This document shows, one piece after another, positions 30,853 to 57,963 of a stretch of 64,000 bases of DNA (its first letter is position 1; the number at the start of each line of letters is the position of its first letter). Under the pieces are notes generated by a model. The model did no database searches. It was not told the DNA's origin and saw only the letters and a list, made by a program, of their open reading frames with translations. Source of the DNA: an uncultured Eubacterium sp. (GTDB taxonomy: Bacteria > Bacillota > Clostridia > Lachnospirales > Lachnospiraceae); contig CANRTU010000006.1 of assembly GCA_947642745.1 (NCBI GenBank), positions 1-64,000 of the forward strand, written 5' to 3'. The translations under genes and the position numbers were made by a program.

Positions 30853-31080
30853 TTATGCCCGCAGCCGCCCGATCATCTTCGCCAGCCCGCTGACAGAATT
30901 AAAATTTTCCTCTATAATCTCTTCATATGGGATTGTGATGCCAAACTCCATGGTCAATGCCGCAATGATCCCTGTAATTGTCAGGGAATCCAGTATCCCG
31001 TCATCTACCAGCGCATCCGACGCCGTAAAATCAATCTCCGGATATTCCTCTGCCAGAAGCTCCAAAATCTTCTCTTCCAT
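30853..31080 (-). CDS. Acyl carrier protein (DltC-like)
   Basis: 75 aa; LVDDGILDSLTITGIIAAL phosphopantetheine DSL site. Confidence 0.88.
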   Translation of the reverse strand: MEEKILELLAEEYPEIDFTASDALVDDGILDSLTITGIIAALTMEFGITIPYEEIIEENFNSVSGLAKMIGRLRA

Positions 31081-31096
31081 TAATTAATTCCTCCAT

Positions 31097-32728
31097 TTAA
31101 AATTGTATGTATACAAAATTGCTCCCACCCTGCTCCGGCCCATAAATGCCAAAAATTATAACAGCCATGATCGAAGCTACATAAAAAACACAGCGGACAG
31201 GCAGATACCAGCCGGCAATTTTCTCCCGTACGCACCCCTTTTCCTGCTGTATATCGACAAACCAGAGTATGCCGGCCGCAAAAAGCGCCAGCGCAAATTC
31301 TTTCCACTCCAGCCCCTGCTCATACAGCGTATTATCCACTAACTGCCATAATTTGGGCTGTGTCAGGATTCTTTTAAAAATCATTCCGGATACATGCAGA
31401 TCCCCCGGAACCGTAATGATCCTTCCGATACAAAACAGTAAAAACGTGCGTATTGTCCGGAATACTTTCCACCCTTTCTTTTCCAGATCCACATGCAGGA
31501 TCTTTGACATTTTTCTTATTTCCGGCGCAAACACTGTTGATAAAATAATCAGCGACCCCCAGTAAACGCCCCATACCAGATAACTGGCCCCTGTACCATG
31601 CCATAGCCCCGTTAACACCCAGACAACGGACAGAGGGACTACCGTCAGTACGGCACGGCCTGCCCTTTTACCAGCTTTCCTGCCTGCCATACCTGATAAA
31701 CGGATCAGGCGGGGTGAAATGACCAGAGGCATATAGACATAATCCCTGAACCATACGCCCAGTGTTATATGCCATCTGCGCCAGAATTCCGACGCTGATT
31801 CCGCAAAAAAAGGATGGTTAAAATTCTTTTCCAGAACAATACCAAACATCTGTGATACCCCGGCCGCAATGTCCATGCAGCCAGAAAAATCGCTGTAAAT
31901 CTGAACTGCTGATAAAATGACCGCTATACACAGTACCGCCCCGCCGGGCGCACCCTCATCTGAAAACACTGTGGCAGTAAACAAAGCAATGCGGTCAGCA
32001 ATAACCATTTTCTTAAAATATCCCCAGATGACAAGCTGTGCGCCAAAGCAAAAAGACCGGTAATCAAACCGATGCCCCTGATACAGATACCCTGCCAGTA
32101 TTCTGTGTTTTGCAACCGGCCCCTGCAATATTTTGGGAAAAAACAGGATAAACAGCAGCAGCTTAAAATAATTCCCTTCCGGCTGGTCCTTTTTCCAGTA
32201 TACATCCGCCAGATATCCAATTGATGAAAACGTATAATAAGAAATACCAAGCGGAACCACAAATCCGGACTTCCATTCCAGAAAGGAATGCAGCTTGCAA
32301 AATAACAGAATCACCAGCAGCACAATACTCCCTGCCATAAGATAAAACCGTGATTTTTTCTTCTGTTTATTACAATCTCCTTCCTGATCCATGCAGCCAG
32401 TACAAACGCCTGCACAATATACGATAAAAGACGTCATTAATACAAACACCAGCGTATTGACTCCGGCGGTACTGTAAAACGCAATACTGCCAGCCAGCAG
32501 CACCACCCACTGCACTCTGCCCGGTACAAGATAGTAAACAAACAGCAGGAGCAGTACAAACACTATAAAATAAAACGATAAAAACGACGGATTTAATGTA
32601 TGAAACCACTCGTCAAAGTGAAACTCTGTATATGGATTTGACGAAAACATCTGATACTCCTTCCTGGCATATTTGATAAACGCTTTCCGTGAGATCTGTC
32701 CGACGGTATGATACATCCTGCGGGTCAC
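31097..32728 (-). CDS. MBOAT family O-acyltransferase (AlgI/DltB-like)
   Basis: FFPKILQGPVAKH, FWRRWHITLGVWFRDYVYMPL, VWVLTGLWHGTGASYLVWG. Confidence 0.92.
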   Translation of the reverse strand: MTRRMYHTVGQISRKAFIKYARKEYQMFSSNPYTEFHFDEWFHTLNPSFLSFYFIVFVLLLLFVYYLVPGRVQWVVLLAGSIAFYSTAGVNTLVFVLMTSFIVYCAGVCTGCMDQEGDCNKQKKKSRFYLMAGSIVLLVILLFCKLHSFLEWKSGFVVPLGISYYTFSSIGYLADVYWKKDQPEGNYFKLLLFILFFPKILQGPVAKHRILAGYLYQGHRFDYRSFCFGAQLVIWGYFKKMVIADRIALFTATVFSDEGAPGGAVLCIAVILSAVQIYSDFSGCMDIAAGVSQMFGIVLEKNFNHPFFAESASEFWRRWHITLGVWFRDYVYMPLVISPRLIRLSGMAGRKAGKRAGRAVLTVVPLSVVWVLTGLWHGTGASYLVWGVYWGSLIILSTVFAPEIRKMSKILHVDLEKKGWKVFRTIRTFLLFCIGRIITVPGDLHVSGMIFKRILTQPKLWQLVDNTLYEQGLEWKEFALALFAAGILWFVDIQQEKGCVREKIAGWYLPVRCVFYVASIMAVIIFGIYGPEQGGSNFVYIQF

Positions 32729-35700
32729 AGGGCTGATTTTTCAGACAGATTTATATGTGTGATCTGATAGTCATCCATACGGCTAAAAACAATAATATCC
32801 ACAACCGTATCTGTCACTTTATTGTATACGACCAGGATAATCCCAACACCCGCAACTACTTTACTTTCTACTTTACTTTCCTCTTTTCCCTGTATCGTAA
32901 TTTCACATCCACTGTAGCCCCTCATAACTCCGATCTTTTTGGTGCCATGTATTACCTCTTCCGCCTTTTCCCTGTCACCGGCTGTCTCCTCTTCCATCCA
33001 TGTCAGCGTATCCAGCTGTTCCAGCGCATCCATAAGCTCTTCGTAGTTTTCTGAATCATCATCCTCTGTCCCATATGGTATAGCAAGGCAGGACACCTTT
33101 CCCTGTGCCAGTTCATCCAGATAGTCGTCCTTATCGCTGATACTCTGAAGCAGGCGGTCTGACAGCTTTGCCATTGCCACGTCCCATTCCCGGTAATCCT
33201 CATCTCCCCGGTGATCTGTGAGGGCGTAGCGCTCCCTGAGATAAGCGCCAAGGTATACACTGTCTTTCCTTACCCCATAAACATTCAAATGTGCGTTATC
33301 TTTATAAAAATCCCTGCGTGAAAAATTCAGTTCACGGTCTAAATCCGTAAAATTAATAAAAGGCACCTCATACGCTTCTGCGATCAGCGATACAGTATGA
33401 AAATAAGGCTGCTGCTGGTCCGCATTCATCGGCTGGGTCGATACAAACACCAGGGGGATATTGTTTTCCCTGCATAAACGGATGATCTTTTTCAGATAAT
33501 ATTCCTGCTTCTCACCAACCGCCAGATACTCTATGCAGTCGGCCCCTGTGTTCATCTGCGCATCCGCTCTCCCATATAAAGGGGCAGACCCTTTATCGAA
33601 TTCCAGCTCCCCGCTCCAGTTATAATGCATAAAATCGTTTTCTGACAATTCCCAATACCGGCCATGGAATAATGGAAATTGCAGAATAAAATCCAGCCTG
33701 TCTTCCATGCTGCAGGAAGCGGCTATGGCTTCTAATTTTATCAGGCCGTTTTTTAGCCCCGACGTATTGGTCATTTGCTGCTGATAGCCTGAAAACTCAT
33801 CCTGAAACCGCATGGAACTGACCTCAAAAACAACTACCTTTGGCGGATTTATTTTTAATGCCTCTTTCATAAAATAATAACTGTTCCATACCGGGCTGGT
33901 GTTTCCCCACAGGTTGTAAGCGCTGATTCCAAATTCATCCCATAAAATCCCCCCGTCGAGATTAATTCCTGTCCTGCTGCTGCCAACAAGCAGCACATCC
34001 ACACTTCCTTTTTCCTGCAGGTAATAGTTTTGCATCGTAGTAATACCATCGGTATTTTTATTCCTTAATGTATAGCAGGCCACATACATTGCTGTCAGCA
34101 GCAGGGCAGCACAAAGCATACATGATACCGCCCGCTTTGCGTATTCTGTCCGGTCATAAGTCAATGCTTCGTCAGACCGGTGGTTATTATACTCTTTTGC
34201 GCCTGCCTGTCTGTTCACCCATGAGCCGGGTAAAACAGCCAGCTTTCCCGAACGTAAGTATAAATTGCGCAGCGCTGCGGCTGCGGAAAGAACGCACAAT
34301 ATTACCAGGGCAAACCATGGCGCCCGCGAAAATAACTGATAATATTTTATGTATTCCGGTATGTAACCGGGGCCGAACCTGATCTGCCCATCCCCTGAAC
34401 CTGCGATATATATAAGCTCCCCAGTCTCTTTACCTGCCTCTCCTTCATAATCAGGGACTGTCCGGTAAATGCCCTTAACCGTATCAGCAGTCTCAGATTT
34501 GCTGATCAATTCTGATTCTGTAATTTCACCTGTAAATGTCCTGGGATTTACCAGCATGACGTCCCCGGTAGAAAAGCAGGATGTAATCATGCCAGACCCG
34601 TAAGATGATATGGATGCGGCAATCCCCTCTTTGCCGGAGACGGACACATCCCCCAGGTTAAGGCAGTATAGAATTTCCCCCGCAAAATTATCCGCCAGAC
34701 CCCCTGCCCGGTATTTCCCCCTTACCTTTGCCTTGTTATAACAGTTTATGATCCGTGCATTTCCACCTCCGTGGCTTGTAATGCTGCCTATGCATTCACC
34801 CCGGAACAAACCGCTTTCTATCCCCAGATTTCTTACTTCGCCTCCCAGTAAGGCAAAAATCCCGGCATACCTGTCCTCGCAGGACACATTATATATACAA
34901 TGCCCCTGCCCGTCATACGTTCCATTAAAAAATATCCCTTTTTTTACATCACCGATTGGTTTCCAGTTTTCCCCGTCCGGAAAATAAAGGTCCTGCGTCT
35001 GTTCAAAAAAATATCCGGCATAATTGACGCCTATATTTACACAATCCCTTAAACATGCCAGGTCTTCGCAGGAAGAAATTAAAAAGGGGTCTTCTTTCGT
35101 GCCCTTCCCGTCAAAACTGTATTTCTTCTCAGACAACGTAAGGAACTCCTGTTTCTTTTCTTCTCTTTCCTGCCGGAAAATATCCGGCTCATACGTGCTG
35201 TCAAAGCAGACGCCGCCTTCTTTCCATACCATAAAAACCGTATTGCCACGGGTAATCAGCTTTTCCTCTTTCTCTTTATCTGCTGTATACTGCTGAAAAA
35301 GGTTTTGATAAAACAGCTCCATGCATGACCCGGCCTCCCGCAGAGCTACAATACCGGAATCTGAGATAGTCCCTGAAAACGTACCATCATCCGTCAGCTT
35401 CTCTGCGTCCGCCGCATAACAGTAACGGATGTCCGCACTACCATATGAAGTAATCCCTGCCGTAACTACGCTCTCACCCGCACCTTCCACATGTCCGGAA
35501 TTCCAGCAGAACATAATAAGTCCCGGATAATTATCGGTAATCCCGCCAGCCCGGCTGTCCGCATATACATCCGCCTTATTATAACAATTAATAATCCTGG
35601 CTGTTCCTGTCCCATGGCTGGTAATACTTCCCGCACAGTTCCCCTGAAAATAGCCGCTTTCAATTCCCAGGTTCCTTACTTCCCCGCCTAAAAACGAAAA

Positions 35701-36057
35701 CAGTCCGGCATACTGGTTATTGCTGTAAATATTTGACAATGTATAGCCATCGCCGTTATACGTCCCCGCAAAAATATGACCCGACAGATCTCCAATCGGA
35801 ATCCAGTTTTCTCCGTCCGGAAAGAAAATATCCGCTGTCTGCTTAAAGAATACCCCTTCCAGACTATCCCCATCATTTACCATATCCCGGAGGCTGGATA
35901 GATCTTCGTACGAAGAAATGAGGTATGGGTCATCCGTTACCCCTCCCCCTTCCCAGACATCCTCCCGCCCTTCCGCTGATACTGGCGCTGCCCGGGCAAA
36001 TACCATTATGCACACCGCCATTAGCAGTATCCCCAAAAAACATATCTGCTTTTTCAT
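32725..36057 (-). CDS. Signal peptide - two GLUG-like repeat units - TM - SGNH/DltD-AlgJ-like domain protein
   Basis: N-terminal signal peptide; two units with LGGEVRNLGIESG.F.G.C.GSITSHG; C-terminal VLLVGSSRTGINLDGG ... FYKDNAHLNVYG; ATGA overlap with MBOAT gene. Confidence 0.8.
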   Translation of the reverse strand: MKKQICFLGILLMAVCIMVFARAAPVSAEGREDVWEGGGVTDDPYLISSYEDLSSLRDMVNDGDSLEGVFFKQTADIFFPDGENWIPIGDLSGHIFAGTYNGDGYTLSNIYSNNQYAGLFSFLGGEVRNLGIESGYFQGNCAGSITSHGTGTARIINCYNKADVYADSRAGGITDNYPGLIMFCWNSGHVEGAGESVVTAGITSYGSADIRYCYAADAEKLTDDGTFSGTISDSGIVALREAGSCMELFYQNLFQQYTADKEKEEKLITRGNTVFMVWKEGGVCFDSTYEPDIFRQEREEKKQEFLTLSEKKYSFDGKGTKEDPFLISSCEDLACLRDCVNIGVNYAGYFFEQTQDLYFPDGENWKPIGDVKKGIFFNGTYDGQGHCIYNVSCEDRYAGIFALLGGEVRNLGIESGLFRGECIGSITSHGGGNARIINCYNKAKVRGKYRAGGLADNFAGEILYCLNLGDVSVSGKEGIAASISSYGSGMITSCFSTGDVMLVNPRTFTGEITESELISKSETADTVKGIYRTVPDYEGEAGKETGELIYIAGSGDGQIRFGPGYIPEYIKYYQLFSRAPWFALVILCVLSAAAALRNLYLRSGKLAVLPGSWVNRQAGAKEYNNHRSDEALTYDRTEYAKRAVSCMLCAALLLTAMYVACYTLRNKNTDGITTMQNYYLQEKGSVDVLLVGSSRTGINLDGGILWDEFGISAYNLWGNTSPVWNSYYFMKEALKINPPKVVVFEVSSMRFQDEFSGYQQQMTNTSGLKNGLIKLEAIAASCSMEDRLDFILQFPLFHGRYWELSENDFMHYNWSGELEFDKGSAPLYGRADAQMNTGADCIEYLAVGEKQEYYLKKIIRLCRENNIPLVFVSTQPMNADQQQPYFHTVSLIAEAYEVPFINFTDLDRELNFSRRDFYKDNAHLNVYGVRKDSVYLGAYLRERYALTDHRGDEDYREWDVAMAKLSDRLLQSISDKDDYLDELAQGKVSCLAIPYGTEDDDSENYEELMDALEQLDTLTWMEEETAGDREKAEEVIHGTKKIGVMRGYSGCEITIQGKEESKVESKVVAGVGIILVVYNKVTDTVVDIIVFSRMDDYQITHINLSEKSAL

Positions 36058-36099
36058 AAGCTCTGTCCTCCTTCATATTCAGTTTAATCTAATATAGTG

Positions 36100-36124
36100 C
36101 GATTATCAATCCATATTTCAAATT
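36100..36124 (-). promoter_or_regulatory. Shared promoter-proximal motif upstream of GLUG-SGNH gene
   Basis: Minus AATTTGAAATATGGATTGATAATCG; matches 59254-59278 with two mismatches; TTGATA -17- TAAACT. Confidence 0.5.
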
Positions 36125-36249
36125 GCAGACGATAATATGTTGCCTGGGCGAAGTTTTGGAGACTATTTCCTGTTAAAAATTCACATATAATAGGATTTTT
36201 ACTCTAAAACTGTATTTAATAGTAAAATGGGACAAAAGGAGATCATTCT

Positions 36250-36663
36250 ATGAATCAGTTTGGAGACAGGTTACGGGAATTACGTGAAGAGCGGAATTTA
36301 AAACAACGGGATGTTGCACAGGCCCTTTCCATCAGCAATAAAGTCCTTTCCAGTTACGAACGCAACGTTGCGTTTCCTTCAATAGAAATGCTGAAAAGAA
36401 TCTGTGAATATTACAATGTATCTGCGGACTACCTGTTGCAGATTGATGTAAAAAAAGAAAAACCGGAAACCAGAAATTCTTTCCGGCTTGTCGCACTAAA
36501 CCCACATCAGATAAGGCTGCTTTCCTATTATGAACGGCTCAACACTGAAAACAAAGACGCTGTCCGTGGGGCAATGGTGCTTTATTATAAAGAACAGATG
36601 CGAAAAAAAAACGATACCCGGACGGATTCTGATGACGAAAAAAACAGCAGCCCACCACATTAA
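36250..36663 (+). CDS. XRE family helix-turn-helix regulator
   Basis: FGDRLRELREERNLKQRDVAQALSISNKVLSSYERNVAFPSIEMLKRICEYYNVSADYLL. Confidence 0.93.
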   Translation: MNQFGDRLRELREERNLKQRDVAQALSISNKVLSSYERNVAFPSIEMLKRICEYYNVSADYLLQIDVKKEKPETRNSFRLVALNPHQIRLLSYYERLNTENKDAVRGAMVLYYKEQMRKKNDTRTDSDDEKNSSPPH

Positions 36664-36963
36664 AAGACTCATGCGCAGCCATTCCATGAATAAACAAGAA
36701 GATAGCAGATCCTGTTTTTTCCAGGTTCATACTCTTAGTATACGCTATACTGTAAATGTTGTCAATTTATTTTTTACTAATCTAGTTCTGTTCTATTTCT
36801 TTGCGATTTTCTTTTGTCATGCCAGAAAATGAATCTGTCCCCGTTCCTTAAAGCATATCTGAAAAATGCTTTAAGGCAGTTTTCCGCTCCCAGCTTTGTA
36901 CCTTCAAGGTATATCACACTTTTCAGGATACAAGGCAGGGAGCTCAGATGACGAATACAATTT

Positions 36964-38229
36964 TCAGACACGCTCCCGTACAACGGGAACCAGAACAAGC
37001 AGAAAACATACGCTCACCAAAGCCATCAAAGCTGTGTACAATACCGCTGCGCCAGACATCTGATACGCTTCCACTACCACATTCGCACAGGCCATCGCCA
37101 GGACCGATATCCCGGCATAAATCCATACCAGGACTTTCTGGCGGCGGATAATTGTAATTACCGCATTCAGCAATCCTGAAAGTCCCAGGAAACCGCCTCC
37201 CAGCAGCAGGATCAGCAGTTCCCTTTTATACGGCTTCAAATCTGCATGATACAAAAACGAGAGAACAGGTATCCCGAATAAATCCGCCCCCAGGATACAT
37301 ACGCCCGTAATTCCGGCTACTGCCAGAACCTGAACTCCGACCTGCTTTAAAAATTCTTTCTTCCTGCCCTCACTCCACAACCGGGATATCTGATAAAGCA
37401 TAGGATTAAAAATAAAGTTATTCAAAAGTCCTATCACAAACACCGGCATCGAAACAAATCCATAGCAGGCCTGTAGTTCGTCCGATAGCAGTGCGTCAAT
37501 GGCATATTTGGGTATATTTCCAATATATACGGATAAAAAACTGCCGGCAAATAGTGGAAAACAGTTTTTGAGCAGCGCCAGCAAATGTTCTCTGTTAAAC
37601 TCCGGCTGTTCCCTGTATGGTACGCATGTCCACTTCAAAAAAACAACCATCACGACAACAGTCACCCCGGCTGCCGCAACAAGCGCCACCAGCTGTTTTT
37701 TTACCAGTATCAGCAAACCCGCATATACAGCAATTGTAATCAATAGCCGGATTGTCATTGCCTTAGACGCAATGTCCAGACGCCCCCGCCGCTGATACTC
37801 CCCAAAGTACACATCCTCGGCCGCATCAGGTATTTTTAACAGGCACATCCAGATAATCACCATACTCTTTTCAAAAGTATAATGCCTTGTAACGGACAAT
37901 ACCGCCACATACGTACAGGATGCCGCCAGCATGGCGGCTATTGACACATATCTTGTATGCAGGTAATCCCGGAAGGAAAACTGCCCCTCCACGTCAGAAA
38001 CCTGATAATTGCGCATACCATACTTCCCGATATTTAAAAACAAATTGGCGTTCACATTTGCGATTGTAAAAATCCCCGCTTCCGCAAGGCCTGCCGTCCT
38101 GGTTATTATCATCAGCAGAATCACCGACTGGAAGGCCATAATCATACTTCCCGCCATGTTCCAGACAAAACTGTCACGTGCGATATTGTTACTTTGCAAA
38201 AGAAATTTCTTTAATGTCATTGGCTTCAA
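36964..38229 (-). CDS. Polysaccharide flippase (Wzx/MOP superfamily)
   Basis: Multi-TM protein, MIMAFQSVILLMIITRTAGLAEAGIFTIANVNANLFLNIGKYG N-terminus. Confidence 0.82.
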   Translation of the reverse strand: MKPMTLKKFLLQSNNIARDSFVWNMAGSMIMAFQSVILLMIITRTAGLAEAGIFTIANVNANLFLNIGKYGMRNYQVSDVEGQFSFRDYLHTRYVSIAAMLAASCTYVAVLSVTRHYTFEKSMVIIWMCLLKIPDAAEDVYFGEYQRRGRLDIASKAMTIRLLITIAVYAGLLILVKKQLVALVAAAGVTVVVMVVFLKWTCVPYREQPEFNREHLLALLKNCFPLFAGSFLSVYIGNIPKYAIDALLSDELQACYGFVSMPVFVIGLLNNFIFNPMLYQISRLWSEGRKKEFLKQVGVQVLAVAGITGVCILGADLFGIPVLSFLYHADLKPYKRELLILLLGGGFLGLSGLLNAVITIIRRQKVLVWIYAGISVLAMACANVVVEAYQMSGAAVLYTALMALVSVCFLLVLVPVVRERV

Positions 38230-41021
38230 ATCTCTTTACATAAAACAGGATATGATCCGCCCTTTACAAATTCCCAGGGAACCAGATCAATTTCATACGT
38301 CAAAGAATTCTGAAGGTTTATTCTTCCGTCTGTATACATACTGCTATCCGGGCTATTCATATCTGTAACCAGCTGATTCAGCTTATTTAACAAAATAAAC
38401 GAAGACATATATTTTTTAGTACAGCGCATAACATTCAGATTTCCTACATTTCCTACGATCTGCGGATGTAACGCTCCGGATAATGAATACACATTTTCTA
38501 TACTGCCTGCATAATACGACACTCCGCCTGCTGTTTCCATGCCATAGATCTCCCCGGTACTAATACAATTGGCAATATTACCGCTGAAATTGTCAGCAAT
38601 GCCGCCTGCCCGCAGGCCGTTCACATCAGCATCTGTATAACAATTCACAATTGCGGCCTGATGGTCAACAGAATGGCTGGCTATAACACCCACGCAGCTG
38701 CCTGCAAATCTGCTATTAATAATACCTAAATTACATACAATTCCACCCAGCTGTCCAAACAATCCTATATTATCATTTTTCGTACAAACAATATTTGATA
38801 TCGTATGTCCCCGGCCATCATAAATACCTTTAAAATAAAATCCGCTGTTAAATTCTCCGATCGGGTTCCACGGCCTCATAAAGGGTGTATTTGACAAATC
38901 CAGATCGACAGTCTGCCTGAAATAAATTCCCGCACAATCATTTCCGTTTTTTACCCATTTTTGCAGGCGCATCAGATCACCTGTATTCTGGATCAGATAT
39001 GGCATATCCTTCGTACCGTGTCCATCAAAACTATCTTTTATTAATTCCTGATTTTTCTTATAATATAATAAAAAGCTGTTTCCCTGTGCGGATTGTACTC
39101 TTCCATAAAATGTATATCCATATATCTGTGTAAAACCCAGCAAAAAATTCCGCATTTTATGCGTCGCTGAAATATTTCCATTTCGAAACGCATGATCATG
39201 TGCCCGGTAAACATCCTGAGCTGTTTCATAAATTAAAACTGCTTTCGGCGGATTTTGTTCCAGCACATCCATATCCTGTATAATTGATTCATCTGAAACA
39301 ACATCCATCCACTGTACTTTTGCACGGACACCCGGATCTTTTCGATTACAGAGATTATAAAAAACTGGTATGTGCGGAAAACAATAAATTGCATCTCCAT
39401 CTTTTGTGTTTTCCTCCAGAACGCCGCATATTTCTTCATATGCCTGCCGTGTTTCAGCAGACATCCGTATTCCTTCTAACATATCTATACTGCTTAAATT
39501 ATCGTTGCTCCAAAATTCTGGTTCCGTCAGTCCCCACCAGTTATATGTACAAACCATTTTCTTTGCAGCGGATTGAATCGTAATCAAAAAAGCTGCCGTA
39601 ACTATGATAAGCTTTGCCGCTTTTGACAATATATTACATCCGGCCGTAAAACCGTCTGCTGTTTTTTCTAAACAAAAATTACAAACCTCCAATAATAAAG
39701 CCACTAACCATGCGACTCCGATAGTGGCCTGCCCTTCCGCTAACCCACCGCACATGATACAGCTGTAAGAAACCGCAAAATACGAACCTGCCACTGTCAT
39801 AAACAATAATTCCTGTTCCAAAAATTCTTTTTTAATTATAAACCGGCTAAGCGCATGAACGGAACAGCAAAAAAATAATGGTACTATCATTAAAAAAACC
39901 GCATATGGACTCAGATACGCATAACCAGCCATTCGCTCTGCAATTCCTTTCTTATTTACAGAAAGTATTAAAACTTCAACGATTACCATACAAAACAAAA
40001 AAGCCCACATTTGATCAAAATACGTGTTTTTACCCGCCGGCAAAAATAACTTTGACACAGCTCCTTCCGTGTTTCGCAATTCTGGAACCGTTCCCCTCTT
40101 TTTCAAATAAGAATATTTAAATACACAGAATAGCGCCAGGAACAGCAATACAAAAAGCGACAGATTCATAGCGCTTTTGAAATAACCCATGTTATTTATA
40201 AATCCTCCAAAAAGGATTGCGGAAACCCCTCCCTTCGCAGCAACAGCATTTGAACCAGCCAGTTTCAGGAACGGAAAAAAACTGCCATTTAACAGGAGGA
40301 TTACCAAAACTATAAAAACCGGAACGCAAAATCCACACAGAAAAAAACCAAGGCTTTTTAAAATTGCTTTCCATGGTTTAAATGCAAAAAGGCCGACTGT
40401 AAAAAGTAAAATCAACGCATATGCTGCATATACCAGACCGTTATTCTGCTTTGTCAAAACTATCCCCGCATTGGAAATTCCCGCAATCAACAGATACTGG
40501 TCATAACGGCTCTGACTTTCTACCCGCAATTGTTTTACTGCTTTTACCAGAAACAATACTGTCAGACACGTAAATATATCCATGAACCGCACATAATCAT
40601 AAAACACCTGCACAACTTCTGACTGCATATAAAATACAGATGCTATGGCGGCAATACAGGCAAAAGAATCCCGGAACAGTTCCCGCATAATAAAGAAAAC
40701 CAGGCATCCAATCAGGCAGTAAAAAATTATTCCAACCACACGTAATACAATAATTTTGTATCCAAAAACCCCCGTCACAAACGCAATGAAATAAAGGTAC
40801 AAAGGGGTGTATAAATAATCAAAATCCCTGTATGCAGCCTCTCCATTATGAATACATTCCGCATAATATGTATACCACCCTTCAGCAAAAGGCATCGTTT
40901 TATCAAACATAATAAACGCATATAACCCTGTAACAAGAAGGATTCCAAGCAGGTACCTGCATTTAAATATAACTTCCCGAACTGTAAGAACTGCCTTTCG
41001 GCCATTTATTCCCGGCATCAT
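38226..41021 (-). CDS. GT-C-like polytopic membrane glycosyltransferase fused to C-terminal GLUG-like domain
   Basis: ~11 TM N-terminus with EAAYRDFDYLYTPLYLY; C-terminus IGLFGQLGGIVCNLGIINSRFAGSCVGVIASH...NCYTDADVNGLRAGGIADNFSGNIANC. Confidence 0.75.
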   Translation of the reverse strand: MMPGINGRKAVLTVREVIFKCRYLLGILLVTGLYAFIMFDKTMPFAEGWYTYYAECIHNGEAAYRDFDYLYTPLYLYFIAFVTGVFGYKIIVLRVVGIIFYCLIGCLVFFIMRELFRDSFACIAAIASVFYMQSEVVQVFYDYVRFMDIFTCLTVLFLVKAVKQLRVESQSRYDQYLLIAGISNAGIVLTKQNNGLVYAAYALILLFTVGLFAFKPWKAILKSLGFFLCGFCVPVFIVLVILLLNGSFFPFLKLAGSNAVAAKGGVSAILFGGFINNMGYFKSAMNLSLFVLLFLALFCVFKYSYLKKRGTVPELRNTEGAVSKLFLPAGKNTYFDQMWAFLFCMVIVEVLILSVNKKGIAERMAGYAYLSPYAVFLMIVPLFFCCSVHALSRFIIKKEFLEQELLFMTVAGSYFAVSYSCIMCGGLAEGQATIGVAWLVALLLEVCNFCLEKTADGFTAGCNILSKAAKLIIVTAAFLITIQSAAKKMVCTYNWWGLTEPEFWSNDNLSSIDMLEGIRMSAETRQAYEEICGVLEENTKDGDAIYCFPHIPVFYNLCNRKDPGVRAKVQWMDVVSDESIIQDMDVLEQNPPKAVLIYETAQDVYRAHDHAFRNGNISATHKMRNFLLGFTQIYGYTFYGRVQSAQGNSFLLYYKKNQELIKDSFDGHGTKDMPYLIQNTGDLMRLQKWVKNGNDCAGIYFRQTVDLDLSNTPFMRPWNPIGEFNSGFYFKGIYDGRGHTISNIVCTKNDNIGLFGQLGGIVCNLGIINSRFAGSCVGVIASHSVDHQAAIVNCYTDADVNGLRAGGIADNFSGNIANCISTGEIYGMETAGGVSYYAGSIENVYSLSGALHPQIVGNVGNLNVMRCTKKYMSSFILLNKLNQLVTDMNSPDSSMYTDGRINLQNSLTYEIDLVPWEFVKGGSYPVLCKEI

Positions 41022-41119
41022 ACATCATCCTTTCCAGGTTATGAACAATTATGAATCGCAGCTATTCTAATTACAAATATAATAACAACTGAACTCATCC
41101 ATAAAAAACATTTTTATGT

Positions 41120-42145
41120 TCACTTTTCATCCATACCCTGTTCATTTAATTCCCTGACTTTCTCACTATGTAAAGAATCAATTCCAGAATTAATTTTATC
41201 CTGATCACCGAAATTAATCCTCTCCTGTTCAATCACTAAAGGTCTGTTAATGATACGCTGGTTCATGCTGCTAATATATTCCCCTAAAAAACCTAAAAAA
41301 AATAATTGTACGGATCCCAGAAAAAACATGCCGATCAGAATCGGGGCCATACCTGCCGCAAACTGTTCCCAGAAAAGCAATTTCAGCACCAGATATACAA
41401 TCGCTGCCACAGTGCTGACAAATCCGCAGGCAATACCGGAAAATGTCGCTATCCGCATCCCCACTTTTGTATAAGTCGTAACGCTCAGCATCGCCGCATC
41501 ATAAAGTGTATACCAGTTATTATGTGTTTTCCCTGCCCTCCGTGCCGGCTGCTCATAAGGTATTTTTTTTATACCATAACCAAACTCCGCTACAATCCCT
41601 CTTAAAAAAGGCATCGGATCTTTCAGCTGCCGCAGTACTTCTATAAATTCATGGTCATATAACCCAGAACCTGTAAAATGCTCGATCAGCTCAATGCTGG
41701 AAAATTTTTGTAGTAATTTATAGTACATGCTCCTCAGCCTGTATACAATCATATTCTCTTTGCTTCCTGTCTTAACACCAATCACAATTTTATATCCATT
41801 TTCCCACTCTTTTACATACTGTGGGATCAGCTCCACCGGATCCTGGAAATCACAGCACATACCAATTGTACAGTCACCGCTCGTTTGCAGCATACCATGG
41901 TAGGGGGAATTAAACTGTCCGAAATTCTTCGCATTAAATATAACCCTGACCCTGGGATTCTCAGCGCAGATCTGACGAAGCAGCGTCCTCGTCGCATCTC
42001 TGGAATCATTGTCTATAAATAAAAGCTCATAATCATATTCCGGAAGCTGTTCCCGGAAAATATCCGCTATTGCCCTGCTCATTGGAACAACATTTTCTTC
42101 TTCATTGTAACATGGAATCATAACGCTTATTTTTTTCATTTGCAT
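41120..42145 (-). CDS. GT2 glycosyltransferase, DPMS/GtrB-like with C-terminal TM pair
   Basis: ISVMIPCYNEEENV, MCCDFQDPVELIPQ; C-terminal two TM; start set to ATG after AGGGGTGTAAA. Confidence 0.88.
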   Translation of the reverse strand: MQMKKISVMIPCYNEEENVVPMSRAIADIFREQLPEYDYELLFIDNDSRDATRTLLRQICAENPRVRVIFNAKNFGQFNSPYHGMLQTSGDCTIGMCCDFQDPVELIPQYVKEWENGYKIVIGVKTGSKENMIVYRLRSMYYKLLQKFSSIELIEHFTGSGLYDHEFIEVLRQLKDPMPFLRGIVAEFGYGIKKIPYEQPARRAGKTHNNWYTLYDAAMLSVTTYTKVGMRIATFSGIACGFVSTVAAIVYLVLKLLFWEQFAAGMAPILIGMFFLGSVQLFFLGFLGEYISSMNQRIINRPLVIEQERINFGDQDKINSGIDSLHSEKVRELNEQGMDEK

Positions 42146-42146
42146 T

Positions 42147-43058
42147 TTACACCCCTGATAGATCTGCTGTTTTTCTGATACCATCCGGAAAATGCACGGC
42201 AGGCCCGAATCCGGTATCTTTTTTCAACTCACTGATATCAGCCTGCAAGTGCATCACCTGCCCCGCAGCATATGGAACAGCGCCAAGCCTTACTTCTGCG
42301 CCGGGAGATATGATATCCCGAAGCTCTAAAATATATTCTGCCAGTGGCTTTGCTTTCCCACTGCCGAGAACATATATTTTTTTATCCGCCCCTTTCTCTC
42401 CGATCAGATAAAGCGCCCTTGCCGCATCCGCACTGTACAAATAGTCCCACATCTGCTCCCCTTTGGTAAATTCCGGCGTTTCCCCAGCCAGAAGTTTCCT
42501 TATGGCTGACATAATCATACTATTTTCACCATCACATGGGCCATATACACTTAACACCCTCACCCATATATGACGTAAACCAAGCTGTCCCGCCAGTTCA
42601 CGTGTCATCAGCCCCGCACACAGCTTTCCCATCCCATATCCATTTTCCGGAAAAGCAGGAGTATCCGGCCGTAAAACACCTTCAACGCACCCATATTCAG
42701 CCTGGGACCCTGTTCCGACAAATACAGAACACCCGAATCGTCTTGCTGCCCGCACCGCATCCAGGGCATATGCGACATTCTGGTTCTGCAAGTACAAATC
42801 ATTTCTTGCATTTCCAAACGTTCCCGCCCAGGCAAGATGATAAAAAACATCATACATGCTGCCTGTATCATTTTGTATCCCTGCAAGCTGTTCCAAAGAA
42901 CAAAATTTCTTTGTTACCAGAGAATGCCGCGGTATGTTCCTGTTCCGTAATGAATCTTTTCTGCATAATACAAGTACTTCTATGCCCTGTTGAATACATT
43001 CATTAACTAAGGCTGTTCCTATTGCGCCTGTAGCGCCAGTAATTACCACTCTTTTCAT
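42147..43058 (-). CDS. NAD-dependent epimerase/dehydratase
   Basis: MKRVVITGATGAIGTALV Rossmann; YGMGKLCAGLM (YxxxK). Confidence 0.85.
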   Translation of the reverse strand: MKRVVITGATGAIGTALVNECIQQGIEVLVLCRKDSLRNRNIPRHSLVTKKFCSLEQLAGIQNDTGSMYDVFYHLAWAGTFGNARNDLYLQNQNVAYALDAVRAARRFGCSVFVGTGSQAEYGCVEGVLRPDTPAFPENGYGMGKLCAGLMTRELAGQLGLRHIWVRVLSVYGPCDGENSMIMSAIRKLLAGETPEFTKGEQMWDYLYSADAARALYLIGEKGADKKIYVLGSGKAKPLAEYILELRDIISPGAEVRLGAVPYAAGQVMHLQADISELKKDTGFGPAVHFPDGIRKTADLSGV

Positions 43059-43189
43059 ATCACACATCCAGCTCCGGAAAGATAACAGAAACCAGCAATA
43101 CAAACCATACCTCCTGAATTCTGCCTTTCCAGCTATCTCAATAATTCTGAGTACAACTATAGTACTATGCCGCTATTTACTATAAGCTG

Positions 43190-45997
43190 CTATTTATGGA
43201 CAAGACGTATCTTACCGCCAATGATCTCCCAGAAACATAACATCTGTCCGCCATTCTTTGCCCTTTCCATATTTAAAGCGGTAACATAACCATTCAGATT
43301 ATCTGTCGTATCCGCATCGTAAAAATAACCGTCATCAATCGAAATATCATTTCCTGTATTACTATAACAATTTATTACAGAATTCGTATGATAACCAGAA
43401 ATACCGGAGGACAGTCCTCTTCCATTAAATGTACAGACCGCTAAACAGTTTATAATCTTTCCGCCAAAATTATCCGCAATACCTCCTGCCCTGCCACTTG
43501 CATGAAATTTCCCGCTTACAAAACAATTAATTATCGCAGAATTTCCATTCAGTCCATGCGATGTAATGCCGCCGATGTTGGTTCCCACAATTTTGCAGTC
43601 CACGACAGCAAGATTCTCCACCGTGCCTGCTAACTGTCCAAACAGCCCGACATTCCCTTCCGGATCATTGATATAAAGGTTAGAAACAGAATAGCCTCCT
43701 CCATCATAATAGCCTTCAAATAATCTGCCGCTGTTATATAATCCGACCGGTTTCCAGTTTCCAGAAGACTTTAGGTCGATGTCCGATACCTGACGGATAT
43801 ATTCGCCTGCAAAAGACCTTCCATGATTCACTAATTTGCGAAATAATTTCAAATCCTTTACATCAGAAATTAAATATGGGGATTCCATGGTACCTTCCCC
43901 CTTCAGGCCGCATGGTTCTGGTTCCGGTGCTGCTATATTGTATACCGCAGTCGTATTTTCCTTTGATTTTCGCTCAATACAGGTTGTAATACAGTCCTTC
44001 CCATCATCCAGTTTATACACAAATACATTATCCACCTGTCCAATCAGTATGTAATCTTTTTCTTTTGCTTGTGAAAACCACTTTTGTATCTCCCTTTGTC
44101 CGCAATATTCTCCATTACGGTAAACAGCTTCATGCACCTCCATACAATCCGGCACATCCATCCATACTACGATATCTGGTTCGTTTTTGGACAACAGCTC
44201 TGCTTCCGCAGCCGCAAAATCGTCCGCACAGACGTCATAGTAAGGGACTGGCACAAAACCGTTCATATTATAATTATCCAGCAGTACATTAAACACTTTA
44301 CAATGAGGAAAGCCCCAGATCGTCGCATTCTCATCTGTATTCGCTTTGATAACCTCATATAGCTTTTCATACTTTTTCTTTTCCTGCGGACTGAATTTAA
44401 AGCCTTTCACAGAATCTATGTCAATCGTTTCCGTCTTTTCCCAATACGATGCCATGGAATCTCCCCACCAGAAATAGGCACATACCAGTTTCTGGGAAAG
44501 GCAGACAACAAAAATACACGATACAATAACATGAAAAATATGAAAAGTGATGAAACCAGATCCATTTTGCGGCTTATTCTTAAATATAATATATGTCAGA
44601 CATGGAATGCTGATAAACGCCGCAACTGAAACAACCCCTGTTTCCCCGTTTGTCATAGCCCAGGCATAACTGCCTGCCACTCCTCCAAACGCCATAACAA
44701 GCCTGTCCTGTTCAGGCTCCTTTTGCTCAATTCTTCTGCTCCATATATGATAAGGAATCCACAAAATCAGAAAACAAAAAACCACAGTCAGCGCAACCGG
44801 CAAAAACTTAAATAAACCTGTCTGCTCATAAATCTGAAAAGCAATGCCATTGATATTTACAATCAGCAGTACTGTATATAGCGCACAAAAAAACAAATTT
44901 GTAAGCCATCCCTCCCGCATACTTTTCAGTACAAAAAACACTAAAAATATATCTGTCAGAAACAAAATAATAAGCCTCGTATTCCAAAGAATTTTCATTG
45001 TCTCAATGAATACCCAGCCATAACCATAACCAAGGAATAAACCGGCGCCTGTTGCCAGGGCAATTCCCGCAGTGATAAAATGCCTTTCCACTAATTCCCA
45101 CTTTTTTTTATGAATAGAAATATAGGAAAAACAAAGCAGGCAGGTACAGGCACAAATGCCACACCATTCCTGTTGAAAGATTCTTATCATTTTTTCAATG
45201 AGTACATGATAAAAACCGCCTTTTGAACTCATATCAATAAAAATCTGATAAAAGAAATCCCGGACCGCATGATGATAACCCAGATAACAAAGCGCTGCCA
45301 CAACAGGACACATAGCGCCCAGAATGACGCAAAGCGACATTTGAATCCAGTTTCTTTCCAATTTTAGAACAATCAATATTCCGAAAAACACCGCAAAAGA
45401 CATTGCGCTTGCCAGTACAACAGGCTGCTTCGATAACAGCATCACTCCTCCACATAAACCGGAAAGAAACATCCAGACTTTTCGTCTGCGGATACTGTTT
45501 TGTGCCGCAACATATCTGTTCATAAAAAAAATCAGGAAAACAATATGGATCAGATTCGTCTGATTATAGTCGCCTATAACATCATGTACAGTCGCCGCTC
45601 CCAGAACAGCAGCCGCAAAACAAGCCACAGACGCAATATACGGACTTACTTTGTGACAAATCATACAATAGAGGAATACCATCATTACAATCCGTTCCAG
45701 CAGCCTCCACAACCTGTATATTAAAAAACTTCCAAAAGACAATTTCAGTATTACGTGGTCAACAACCAGATTGAAAGGTGGGAGATAATAATAAAAATCC
45801 CTGTATGGTATTTTCCCCTGCGCAAGCAATGCATCGTAAAATCCGGCCCAGCCTTCAGCCATAATAAATGTCTTATCCAGCCAGACAAAATGATACAGGA
45901 TTACAGCCAGAACCAAAACAATGCCGCATATCCATTTTTCCAGATACGCAGTATCAGATTTCTGCTTTTTAAATTTCAGACATTCCATCACCTTCAA
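43190..45997 (-). CDS. GT-C-like polytopic membrane glycosyltransferase fused to C-terminal GLUG-like domain (paralog of 38226..41021)
   Basis: KIPYRDFYYYLPPFNL; C-terminus VGLFGQLAGTVENLAVVDCKIVGTNIGGITSHG...SGRAGGIADNFGGKIINC. Confidence 0.75.
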   Translation of the reverse strand: MKVMECLKFKKQKSDTAYLEKWICGIVLVLAVILYHFVWLDKTFIMAEGWAGFYDALLAQGKIPYRDFYYYLPPFNLVVDHVILKLSFGSFLIYRLWRLLERIVMMVFLYCMICHKVSPYIASVACFAAAVLGAATVHDVIGDYNQTNLIHIVFLIFFMNRYVAAQNSIRRRKVWMFLSGLCGGVMLLSKQPVVLASAMSFAVFFGILIVLKLERNWIQMSLCVILGAMCPVVAALCYLGYHHAVRDFFYQIFIDMSSKGGFYHVLIEKMIRIFQQEWCGICACTCLLCFSYISIHKKKWELVERHFITAGIALATGAGLFLGYGYGWVFIETMKILWNTRLIILFLTDIFLVFFVLKSMREGWLTNLFFCALYTVLLIVNINGIAFQIYEQTGLFKFLPVALTVVFCFLILWIPYHIWSRRIEQKEPEQDRLVMAFGGVAGSYAWAMTNGETGVVSVAAFISIPCLTYIIFKNKPQNGSGFITFHIFHVIVSCIFVVCLSQKLVCAYFWWGDSMASYWEKTETIDIDSVKGFKFSPQEKKKYEKLYEVIKANTDENATIWGFPHCKVFNVLLDNYNMNGFVPVPYYDVCADDFAAAEAELLSKNEPDIVVWMDVPDCMEVHEAVYRNGEYCGQREIQKWFSQAKEKDYILIGQVDNVFVYKLDDGKDCITTCIERKSKENTTAVYNIAAPEPEPCGLKGEGTMESPYLISDVKDLKLFRKLVNHGRSFAGEYIRQVSDIDLKSSGNWKPVGLYNSGRLFEGYYDGGGYSVSNLYINDPEGNVGLFGQLAGTVENLAVVDCKIVGTNIGGITSHGLNGNSAIINCFVSGKFHASGRAGGIADNFGGKIINCLAVCTFNGRGLSSGISGYHTNSVINCYSNTGNDISIDDGYFYDADTTDNLNGYVTALNMERAKNGGQMLCFWEIIGGKIRLVHK

Positions 45998-46165: not shown

Positions 46166-47488
46166 CTAAAACGAACTATCTGCCCCGTATTTGTATAAGC
46201 CATGTAGTGTTTCGTCCGCTGCTATAACTACTTTTACATCCTTTGCATAATGTCCTAAAATATCTGCACGCAGCCTTTCAATTTTTTTTGCAATACCACC
46301 TGAAAAAATAACCGTATCCACCAGTTCCGGCTGTGGCCCGACCCGGTCTGCAGCCAATAAAATATTATGTTTCATCTCATCCAGAACACTATGCATTAAA
46401 TTCCCCAGTGTCAGCGTATATTCACTGATATTGTAAATACTCCCTCTTGTATGATCTGTAATTGCATTTTCAAAAAAACTCATATCACATAACAAATCAG
46501 ATGTCTTAACTTTTTTCTCTTCCTGTAATAAGATATCCCAAATATTATCATCTTCTCTATGCACTCCAAATTTATCCAGTACATCCTTTACAAACCGGAT
46601 ATACACATTTAATGCTCTTCCAGATGGTATAAACGGTATGGTTTTTAAATATGCACCATTGAAATATGGCCTTAGCTGACAACCAGGAACTTTAGAAAGC
46701 TTTCTGACAACTGTACTAACCTGTGCTCCTGTACCAAGATTAAAAGAAATTGTATTTTCAGTCAGCACCCCTGCGCCATACAACGCAGCCTGCTGATCTC
46801 CCAGAGCAGGCCTTGCAGTTACAAGTGTTTTTCCAGGCAGGCCAAAACAGACATTTTCCGTACCAATAGCCGGAAAAACAATTTCTCCACCGATTGTCTG
46901 TAAAAGTCTCTGATTCCATCTCCCTGATCTTAACTCATACAACCCTGTTGCCGCAGCATTCGTAGGATGACACACCGGCTCCTGTCCTGACAGTCTCTTT
47001 AATATATAATCCCCCAATGTATAAAAAAAAAGCTTACCAGATGTTGTATTCAGATACCCCTGCCGTGACAAATATAACAGATTGCAAACCGGAAGCCCGG
47101 CCCTCAATGGCATACCTGTGTCAGCTATCGTATCTGCATAAGCTTTCTCACCTAATATATCCATTGATGATTTTCCCGCTATTTTAACCGCACCATATTC
47201 TTTCTGCCAGGAAATATAATCCGTATATGGCTTTCCATCCTCATATGCCAGGAGAAAACCATGCATTTCATTTGAGATACATAACCGAAACCGCTCAAGC
47301 CCCTCTGATAATTTCATAACCATGTTATACACAGATGCGACCAGCTTTTCAATTTGTACAATTTCCGTCAATTCTCTTTCCAGACTGACCTGCGGTGCAT
47401 ATTCCTGTATTTTCTTTATTATTTGCTGGTTTTTCAGACGGGCTCCTTTTAAAAAACTTGCTCCACAATCAATCGCTATAATATTCAT
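46166..47488 (-). CDS. FGGY family carbohydrate kinase
   Basis: IIAIDCGASFLKGARL, FNLGTGAQVSTV, FSGGIAKKIERL. Confidence 0.78.
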   Translation of the reverse strand: MNIIAIDCGASFLKGARLKNQQIIKKIQEYAPQVSLERELTEIVQIEKLVASVYNMVMKLSEGLERFRLCISNEMHGFLLAYEDGKPYTDYISWQKEYGAVKIAGKSSMDILGEKAYADTIADTGMPLRAGLPVCNLLYLSRQGYLNTTSGKLFFYTLGDYILKRLSGQEPVCHPTNAAATGLYELRSGRWNQRLLQTIGGEIVFPAIGTENVCFGLPGKTLVTARPALGDQQAALYGAGVLTENTISFNLGTGAQVSTVVRKLSKVPGCQLRPYFNGAYLKTIPFIPSGRALNVYIRFVKDVLDKFGVHREDDNIWDILLQEEKKVKTSDLLCDMSFFENAITDHTRGSIYNISEYTLTLGNLMHSVLDEMKHNILLAADRVGPQPELVDTVIFSGGIAKKIERLRADILGHYAKDVKVVIAADETLHGLYKYGADSSF

Positions 47489-48539
47489 GTGTTTCCTCTA
47501 TATAATTCAAAAAAATATTTTCAAGTGTTTGATTAATCTCTACAGGATACACTACTAAATGACTTCTTCTATCCAATAACGCAAAATGGAGTATATTTCC
47601 CCTTACTTTCTTATCTGTATGGATAATCGCAAATAATTCTTTTGGATTTTCAATGATTACCTCTTCTGTAATAAAAGCTTTTTTGATCAAAGATTTTATT
47701 TCCAGATAATAACTTCTATCTATTAATCCTTCTTTCCAGGCAATATAATTCGCTACATCAATTCCCCATATAACTCCTTTTCCATGCGGAACTACATTCT
47801 TAGTATACGCTTCAAGGGCATGGCCGAATGTATGTCCATAATTCAGCACCCGTCGCAAATCGGATTCAAATTCATCTATCTCAATAATCTTTTTTTTCAC
47901 CAATAATCCTTTTTTTATATACTCCTCCAGCTGCGTACAGGGAATAAACGTTTTCTCATTTTTTAACTCATTATAAAAAGTCTCACCATCTGTCAGAGAA
48001 AATTTTAGCAATTCTCCCCATCCGTTTAAGTAATCTTCCTCTGACAATGTATGTATAAAATGAGTATCAATAATAATTTCCCCGGGCGGATAAAAAACTC
48101 CAATCTGATTCTTATATGGTCCAAAATTTATCCCGCTCTTCCCTCCGATACAGGAATCACACATAGACAATAAAGTAGTTGGAAAAAATATCCAGTCCAC
48201 ATTCCGTAAAAATAAATTACTGGCAACCGCCACTACGTCCTGTGTAATTCCACCACCAAAACAAATAACCTTCCAGTTTTTTTTCATATTTAATTTTTGA
48301 AAAAAAGACAAAAGATCCATAACAGTGTCCATATTTTTGTGATTTTCAGTAGCATCAAAAAAATAAATCTTTTGCTTGTCTATAACCTGAAATTTTTCCT
48401 TATACAACCGATACACGTTTTTATCAATAACATAAACGGCTGTATCAGTCACAGCAGACAAATTTTCCACAAAATCTTCCGTAAAACAAACCTTATAATC
48501 GTGCAAACCTGAATTAATCTGAATTGTATCCATATCCAT
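47469..48539 (-). CDS. 3-dehydroquinate synthase-like sugar-phosphate cyclase
   Basis: CFGGGITQDVVAVASNLFLRNVDWIFFPTTLLSMCDSCIGGKSGINF, LRRVLNYGHTFGHALE. Confidence 0.85.
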   Translation of the reverse strand: MDMDTIQINSGLHDYKVCFTEDFVENLSAVTDTAVYVIDKNVYRLYKEKFQVIDKQKIYFFDATENHKNMDTVMDLLSFFQKLNMKKNWKVICFGGGITQDVVAVASNLFLRNVDWIFFPTTLLSMCDSCIGGKSGINFGPYKNQIGVFYPPGEIIIDTHFIHTLSEEDYLNGWGELLKFSLTDGETFYNELKNEKTFIPCTQLEEYIKKGLLVKKKIIEIDEFESDLRRVLNYGHTFGHALEAYTKNVVPHGKGVIWGIDVANYIAWKEGLIDRSYYLEIKSLIKKAFITEEVIIENPKELFAIIHTDKKVRGNILHFALLDRRSHLVVYPVEINQTLENIFLNYIEETHEYYSD

Positions 48540-48589: not shown

Positions 48590-49258
48590 TTATTGTGATG
48601 TATATCCTCCGTCTACTATTATCTTTTGTCCTGTCAGATATGTATTGCTCTCTCCTGCCAGATAGCAGATTACGCCTGCAATTTCGTCTGGCTGTGCCAT
48701 ACGCCCCAGCGGAATCTTTTTTTCAATTTCATGAATTTGTTCCTTTGTATTATTTTTATACGTTAATTCTGTAAGTGCAAATCCCGGACAAACTGTGTTT
48801 ACTAATATATTATACCCACCAAGCTCTACAGCCAGCGTTTTCGTAATGCCATGTATTCCATGCTTTGTCATGCTATATACGATACGGCCGTGTTTGGACA
48901 CAACCCCCCAGACTGATCCAATATTGATAATTCTTCCATACCTGTTTTTCTTCATAGATGGCACAAATGCACGTAAGAGCAATAATGGCGATATTAAATT
49001 AACACGCATGGAACGCTCTATCTCATCATCTGTCACATTTTCTATATCGTTAACTTCGTTGATCCCCGCATTATTGATTAAAATATCATAAGAATCATTT
49101 TTATGTAATTCCAAAAATTTTTCTACTGAAATAATGGATGATAAATCCATTTCTTCTCTGGTGGGGGCATATACGTCATAACCCATTTGCACAAATTTTT
49201 CCACAACTGCCTGTCCAATTCCTCTGCTCCCACCTGTTACAAATGCAGTTTTTTTCAT
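48590..49258 (-). CDS. SDR family oxidoreductase
   Basis: TAFVTGGSRGIGQAVVE, NNAGIN, YSMTKHGIHGITK. Confidence 0.9.
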   Translation of the reverse strand: MKKTAFVTGGSRGIGQAVVEKFVQMGYDVYAPTREEMDLSSIISVEKFLELHKNDSYDILINNAGINEVNDIENVTDDEIERSMRVNLISPLLLLRAFVPSMKKNRYGRIINIGSVWGVVSKHGRIVYSMTKHGIHGITKTLAVELGGYNILVNTVCPGFALTELTYKNNTKEQIHEIEKKIPLGRMAQPDEIAGVICYLAGESNTYLTGQKIIVDGGYTSQ

Positions 49259-51105: not shown

Positions 51106-51229
51106 TTCTCTAATCCCCTTTAAAATTTCATACTTATCTGTCGTTATCACAGAGCGTATTTGAAAAACGCTTCCCACAAAATGGAAAATTCAAATGGCTG
51201 GAATGAATTTTGTCACGCTCTACGGCCAC

Positions 51230-57887: not shown

Positions 57888-57922
57888 AGTCTTCCCTCTT
57901 CTGTAAACCCATCCCTTCGTCT

Positions 57923-57963
57923 TTTGCGGCACGGGCTTTTCCGGGAAAGGCCCGTGCCGCAAA
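57923..57963. other. Perfect 14-bp inverted repeat between the wall-protein gene and rfbF, no U-tract on either strand
   Basis: TTTGCGGCACGGGC ... GCCCGTGCCGCAAA. Confidence 0.75.

Follow-up and report, generated by a model that had tools for sequence, protein, structure and literature searches.

We propose that a GLUG-like beta-helix carried by three membrane enzymes of one glycan locus is a non-catalytic extracytoplasmic acceptor-recognition domain, shared by enzymes for the assembly and acylation of a single surface glycan with a CDP-derived branched 3,6-dideoxyhexose; the probability that we give to this reading is about 0.5. The locus lies in the window, that is, the whole stretch of 64,000 nucleotides that was analysed. 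An earlier note had reported a pair of GLUG-like units in an SGNH protein and a single C-terminal unit in each of two GT-C proteins, and exactly this arrangement is found, four units in three genes. The interval given there, 34467-45997, contains all four units, but the SGNH gene runs on to 32725, outside it. On the minus strand, from 57962 down to 28670, the locus has the following order, interrupted by one ORF on the plus strand:

57102..57962, minus: RfbF-like glucose-1-phosphate cytidylyltransferase (PF00483, 1e-17)
55798..57105, minus: GT87-like GT-C glycosyltransferase without GLUG (PF09594, 19.7 bits, below cut-off)
54457..55530, minus: RfbG-like CDP-glucose 4,6-dehydratase (PF16363, 2.7e-36)
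52960..54318, minus: RfbH, CDP-4-keto-6-deoxyglucose 3-dehydrase (PDB 3bcx, 1.8e-142)
51230..52855, minus: HMGL-like aldolase-type enzyme (PF00682, 1.4e-18)
49294..51177, minus: YerE-like ThDP enzyme, proposed to add a two-carbon branch (TPP domains; PDB 8rph, 9.5e-119)
48590..49258, minus: short-chain dehydrogenase (SDR), possible keto-sugar reductase (PF13561, 2.5e-45)
47469..48539, minus: AroB-related sugar phosphate cyclase (TIGR04425, 5.9e-99, 331 of 400 bits)
46166..47488, minus: FGGY-type sugar kinase (PF00370, 1e-13)
43190..45997, minus: second GT-C protein, P0003, with C-terminal GLUG and a TTG start (21% identity to P0002 over the GT-C part)
43343..43906, minus: GLUG module at the C-terminus of P0003 (alignment, profile)
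42147..43103, minus: NAD-dependent sugar epimerase (PF01370, 3e-34)
41120..42184, minus: GT2 polyprenyl-phosphate sugar transferase, PgfS-like, with 2 TM segments (PF00535, 5e-21; NF047588 PgfS, 2.1e-45, below the equivalog cut-off)
38226..41021, minus: GT-C glycosyltransferase (PMT_2), P0002, with 11 predicted TM segments, an alpha/beta domain and a C-terminal GLUG (PF13231, 36.1 bits, cut-off 26.1)
38472..39029, minus: GLUG module at the C-terminus of P0002, 38229-39044 with its tail (alignment, profile, AlphaFold model)
36964..38229, minus: putative Wzx-type flippase (no Pfam match of its own; the relative L097:16311-17576, 521 bits, matches Polysacc_synt)
36250-36663, plus: regulator ORF interrupting the locus
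32725..36057, minus: SGNH (DltD/PatB-like) acyltransferase partner with a signal/TM segment, 2 GLUG, 2 TM and an SGNH domain (DUF1574, 18.8 bits, below cut-off; motifs)
35395..35955, minus: first GLUG module (unit 1) of the SGNH protein (match of 2.5e-90 to the profile built from unit 1; alignment)
34552..35115, minus: second GLUG module (unit 2) of the SGNH protein, with 55% identity to unit 1 (alignment, profile, tree)
31097..32728, minus: MBOAT acyltransferase with C-terminal FVYIQF, an FXYXXF acyl-shuttle motif (PF03062, 3e-9; DltB model 8.3e-44, below cut-off)
30853..31080, minus: acyl carrier protein, 75 aa, with the attachment motif DDGILDSL (PF00550, PP-binding, 29.5 bits, cut-off 20.8; DltC model below cut-off)
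28670..30748, minus: AMP-forming acyl ligase with a fused nitroreductase domain, the proposed charging enzyme of the carrier (PF00501, 3e-65; PF00881, 6e-24)

The alignment of the four window units gives a length of about 188 aa, 39-55% identity to unit 1 and about 47 invariant columns. The profile was trained on the units themselves, so their high scores are partly circular; outside the window units it finds one further match in the 4.1-Mb genome, a weak one (25 bits, contig 32). Chance resemblance is excluded by the match of the unit profile to the solved beta-helix 3n6z (E = 8.7e-19). The same structure is recovered by fold: for the AlphaFold model of the P0002 module (pLDDT 84, pTM 0.88), 3n6z (6.5e-07) is the sole PDB match below E 0.001, the pneumococcal IgA1 protease being next. 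Homology to a solved GLUG-type beta-helix is thus seen both by profile and by fold, and the window units are real homologues of 3n6z. At the Pfam level, GLUG (PF07581) scores 16.8 bits in the SGNH protein, under the gathering score of 20.5, and gives no match in either window GT-C and none in the whole genome at 20.5 bits. Among GLUG right-handed beta-helices, the unit belongs to a dedicated sub-lineage.

Both structural neighbours resemble the module in fold, and 3n6z, from B. ovatus, also in sequence. However, their beta-helices belong to soluble secreted proteins, whereas the module of the window sits on polytopic or membrane-tethered glycan enzymes. In the pneumococcal IgA1 protease the beta-helix shifts by about 10 A and gates the entry of substrate to the active site, which is a precedent for a GLUG-like helix controlling access of substrate.

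The assignment of the carriers is of unequal strength. P0002 has fold matches to STT3, AglB, DPY19, AftA, ArnT and Pmt4, the full-length model (pLDDT 75, pTM 0.68) being sufficient for the fold class and insufficient to place the module over the active site. The soluble domains of GT-Cs of these types face outward. P0003 has no Pfam glycosyltransferase match of its own and is assigned to GT-C solely via its alignment to P0002. The SGNH protein has the catalytic motifs GSS (692-694) and DNAH (920-923), and its relative in L067 keeps GSS and DDSH. NCBIfam offers no useful model for the three window carriers. As predicted from hydropathy, the module lies outside in P0001, P0002, L097, L161 and three carriers of Lachnospiraceae U.6_1; the prediction is the opposite for other carriers and is mixed for several GT-Cs.

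As judged from its gene families, the locus combines three parts: synthesis of a CDP-3,6-dideoxyhexose, to which a YerE-like ThDP enzyme belongs; a Pgf-like set of GT2, epimerase and two GT-Cs; and an MBOAT-SGNH unit for acylation that is fed by a carrier. RfbF, RfbG and RfbH of the CDP-3,6-dideoxyhexose pathway are all present in the window. The ThDP enzyme has its ThDP domains and adjoins these genes; we propose that it would add a two-carbon branch to the keto-sugar. The HMGL-like enzyme (51230-52855) repeatedly adjoins the YerE-like ThDP enzyme in many Clostridia loci and may supply or extend the keto-acid donor. The pair of AroB-related cyclase and FGGY kinase (46166-48539), inside the glycan locus, may yield a cyclitol or an unusual sugar. 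Just upstream of RfbF, positions 58001-59086 encode a secreted protein with a Ser/Thr-Pro-rich stretch and choline/glucan-binding repeats, which may act as an anchor in the wall or as a target of glycosylation. At 26766-27533 a response-regulator receiver domain passes into a hydrophobic C-terminus and not into a DNA-binding domain, possibly due to a deletion or an assembly join.

The acyl carrier protein gene (30853-31080) is an addition to the earlier finding. It stands beside the shuttle-bearing MBOAT, and this arrangement is repeated in L067 (18470-20376) and L127; the MBOAT motif is FVYIQF in the window and FIYAGF in the U.6_1 relative. FXYXXF is the acyl-shuttle motif, and among MBOAT-SGNH pathways Dlt alone is described as having a carrier (PMC12148441). 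The AMP-ligase, carrier, MBOAT and SGNH partner, together with the FXYXXF and SGNH motifs, are common to the window and to the Dlt (DltABCDX) and PatAB-type systems (PMC12148441). The scores required for D-alanylation are not reached, being 150 against 375 (DltB) for the MBOAT and 26.4 against 68 (DltC) for the carrier. Gene neighbourhood points to a hybrid, carrier-fed as in Dlt and with the shuttle on the MBOAT as in PatA, and the two GLUG modules on the SGNH protein set it apart from both.

The nearest known gene set is that of Streptococcus mutans Pgf (pgfS-pgfM1-pgfE-pgfM2; PMC5856776), which, like the window, combines a GT2, an epimerase and two membrane proteins, PgfM1 being of the PMT_2 family. 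Unlike the window, the domain scheme of Pgf has no extracellular beta-helix, and the operon has neither a CDP-dideoxyhexose pathway nor an acylation unit (PMC5856776); the window GT2 scores 155 bits against a PgfS equivalog cut-off of 500. GT-Cs with extracytoplasmic accessory domains are exemplified by PMTs with MIR domains and Emb arabinosyltransferases with a C-terminal CBM. These likewise place a non-catalytic outer domain on a GT-C that uses a polyprenyl-phosphate sugar, but the fold differs, and the domain of the window occurs on acyltransferases as well. The literature on GLUG or beta-helix domains fused to a glycosyltransferase yielded nothing relevant, that on Roseburia flagellin glycosylation showed no link with CDP-glucose, and the literature searched held no description of branched dideoxyhexose glycan loci of Roseburia or Gemmiger.

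A profile search for all carriers, as the earlier note had suggested, shows a wider spread than noted there, with GT87 enzymes, acyltransferase-3 and an 11-12-TM protein also carrying the module. For the GT-C profile, full-length relatives are present in 3 of 396 family genomes, and all three have the C-terminal GLUG, one of half length. A fused-alignment scan of 85,462 species genomes gave 15 loci, among them Lachnospiraceae U.6_1 (L067), Gemmiger formicilis ATCC 27749 (L069), Roseburia inulinivorans DSM 16841 (L071) and an uncultured Clostridiales (L070). The U.6_1 locus repeats the whole arrangement, with RfbG, the 11-12-TM protein (1278 aa, two GLUGs), RfbH, the ThDP enzyme, epimerase, GT2, GT-C-GLUG, GT87, SGNH-GLUG, MBOAT and carrier. 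G249 has a GT87 GT-C with a GLUG fused to its N-terminus; in L070 and G321 (L097) the GLUG is fused C-terminally to acyltransferase-3. In G470 a separate signal-GLUG-TM protein of 308 aa is encoded by a gene that shares a 4-nt overlap with an acyltransferase-3 gene, the YerE-like enzyme being on a different contig; this split form is the strongest single hint of cooperation between the module and the acyltransferase. The carrier genomes are those of gut and rumen Clostridia. Across Clostridia the partners are PMT_2 GT-C, GT87 GT-C, acyltransferase-3, SGNH and the 11-12-TM protein, and the gene context common to the carriers is RfbF/G/H, the ThDP enzyme, epimerase and GT2. One beta-helix is thus attached to membrane enzymes of five or more unrelated kinds, all involved in building or decorating a rare branched-sugar glycan, which suggests that all of them use it to recognise the same surface target.

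The expectation that GT-C-GLUG fusions always accompany the acyl cassette does not hold: both are found in the window and in U.6_1, G138 has an acyltransferase-3, and nothing of the kind is seen within about 10 kb in Gemmiger and Roseburia. Several of the fusion genes are broken or short, with a run-of-G frameshift in U.6_1 (L067, about 12194-12201), three ORF pieces in R. inulinivorans (L071, 9980-12645) and half a module in G138 (L050, 9796-10062); assembly error, decay or phase variation may account for such draft genes. Directly after the R. inulinivorans gene (L071, 13010-18645) come a reverse transcriptase with a TOTE primase domain and a 1041-aa protein with no Pfam match.

The ThDP enzyme is present in 87 of 396 genomes of the family and in 28 of 388 of the class. 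Among the surrounding loci that were retrieved, the RfbF/G/H-ThDP-epimerase-GT2 core is seen in many and the module in few, so that the module is an optional addition; since, further, the GT-C relatives in L070, L072 and L157 are without it, it is not needed for the chemistry. With the window excluded, enzyme-GLUG genomes number 4 of 85 with the ThDP enzyme and 0 of about 592 without it (Fisher p = 2e-4), the genome counts being taken by hand, the absences resting on incomplete assemblies and windows of +/-10 kb, and the architecture having been inspected for part of the weak GLUG matches. Generic GLUG proteins are widespread, with at least one in 128 of 298 genomes of the family and in 168 of 388 of the class. 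None of 41 generic control carriers is polytopic, all having two predicted TM segments or fewer, and none has cassette genes nearby; 19 further generic carriers from the class scan have at most one predicted TM segment.

In the tree, the 15 enzyme-linked units form one clade (support 98/90) apart from 35 other GLUG units. The clade is characterised by conserved SH and RAGGxxD residues, and a set of clade-specific residues (Q703, Y734, N743, S782, H783, R804, D810 and F812 of P0002) is rare or absent in generic GLUGs. Inside the clade, P0002 groups with the GT-C units of G210 and Roseburia, the SGNH tandem of the window groups with the acyltransferase-3 unit of G321, and the U.6_1 units are scattered. 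The grouping of the units follows neither the locus nor, in any strict way, the enzyme, and those of the same locus are not closest relatives except for the SGNH tandem; hence the module has moved between enzyme types and was not recently copied in place. Secreted proteins with four GLUGs from the same cassette, considered as further carriers (L147, 13422-19604; L149, 13665 onward), fall in the generic clade.

GLUG-CotH kinase and GLUG-Cthe_2159 proteins are among the nearest rows outside the clade, on a weakly supported branch; surface proteins and enzymes with a single attached GLUG are hence somewhat more widespread than the clade itself. The CotH fusions (L040, 8083-10404; L041, 8044-10371; L043, 7831-10371), of which L040 and L043 have the units on that branch, likewise have one GLUG on a membrane-tethered surface enzyme; they differ from the window carriers in being outside the clade, with one TM segment and no cassette genes found nearby. 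In L041 the GLUG-CotH gene adjoins an MBOAT-SGNH pair.

The earlier note had argued that the shared domain implies a common scaffold or ligand. The ligand fits, since the same module is found on the acyltransferase partner, the GT-Cs, acyltransferase-3 and GT87 in like loci. A scaffold would require docking domains that bind each other or a common surface protein and so hold the GT-Cs, SGNH protein and MBOAT as one assembly complex. Both the window and U.6_1 do have several units on three different enzymes each, and the split GLUG protein of G470 could be a subunit. However, seven of the nine other genomes have exactly one enzyme-linked module, in a single gene product, which disfavours a self-assembling module-module scaffold and makes an obligate one unlikely, and the units of one locus, the SGNH tandem apart, are not each other's closest relatives; we consider docking rather unlikely. 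We are similarly doubtful that the modules are generic adhesin-type beta-helices joined by chance recombination, mere spacers or stabilisers embedded in the wall, for which the abundance of GLUG proteins and the half modules and broken genes of L050, L067 and L071 would speak. A generic adhesin repeat, named beforehand as grounds for abandoning the idea, is a true description of the fold, but it fails for the enzyme-linked sub-lineage, which forms a separate clade and has SH and RAGGxxD as conserved residues peculiar to it; the recurrence of fusions with unrelated enzymes within one locus type and the lack of polytopic proteins among the controls also stand against the spacer.

Large secreted surface proteins of the same genomes carry GLUG domains, so the module might instead bind a host or dietary ligand, with the enzymes doubling as adhesins, or hold the enzymes at a site such as the septum. 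This is very improbable: the enzyme-linked carriers have one or two units and not long repeats, and they are polytopic or membrane-tethered, hence the module should sit beneath the wall. Still less credence is due to the module itself being the acceptor, glycosylated or acylated, even with a separate GLUG protein adjoining acyltransferase-3 in G470 and with Pgf systems modifying proteins, as what is conserved is a glycine-rich beta-helix core with a few polar residues and no Ser/Thr-rich acceptor stretch.

The reading that we prefer is acceptor recognition. Beyond what is observed, namely the enzyme families, the homology of the modules, their fusions and the clade, we infer binding of the acceptor at the outer face, the structure of the sugar, transfer of an acyl group and a sequence of events as follows. 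RfbF, RfbG, RfbH and the ThDP enzyme would make the branched CDP-sugar, the GT2 would load the sugar onto polyprenyl phosphate, the flippase would turn the lipid-linked sugar outward, and the GT-C enzymes would transfer it to the acceptor. An acyl group would then travel from the carrier-fed MBOAT, via the tyrosine of the FXYXXF motif at the MBOAT C-terminus, to the SGNH protein for acylation of the glycan; MBOAT-SGNH acylation chemistry has precedent (PMC12148441). At each outer-face active site, in the GT-Cs as in the SGNH protein, the beta-helix would hold the same acceptor. This acceptor may be a wall polymer, an exopolysaccharide or a protein; by analogy with Pgf, the gene set would equally allow protein glycosylation and the decoration of a wall polymer. 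More tentatively, a single beta-helix lineage could act as a portable acceptor-address tag that is exchanged between membrane glycosyltransferases and acyltransferases of unrelated kinds and aims different transferase chemistries at the same branched-dideoxyhexose glycan.

Little is known of how membrane transferases select an acceptor at their outer face. With its recurrence on the GT-C, MBOAT-SGNH and acyltransferase-3 systems of one kind of locus, the domain offers a single soluble, expressible module for identifying the acceptor, and it marks branched dideoxyhexose glycan loci in common gut genera such as Roseburia and Gemmiger. If true, the portable tag would be the glycan-biosynthesis counterpart of carbohydrate-binding modules.
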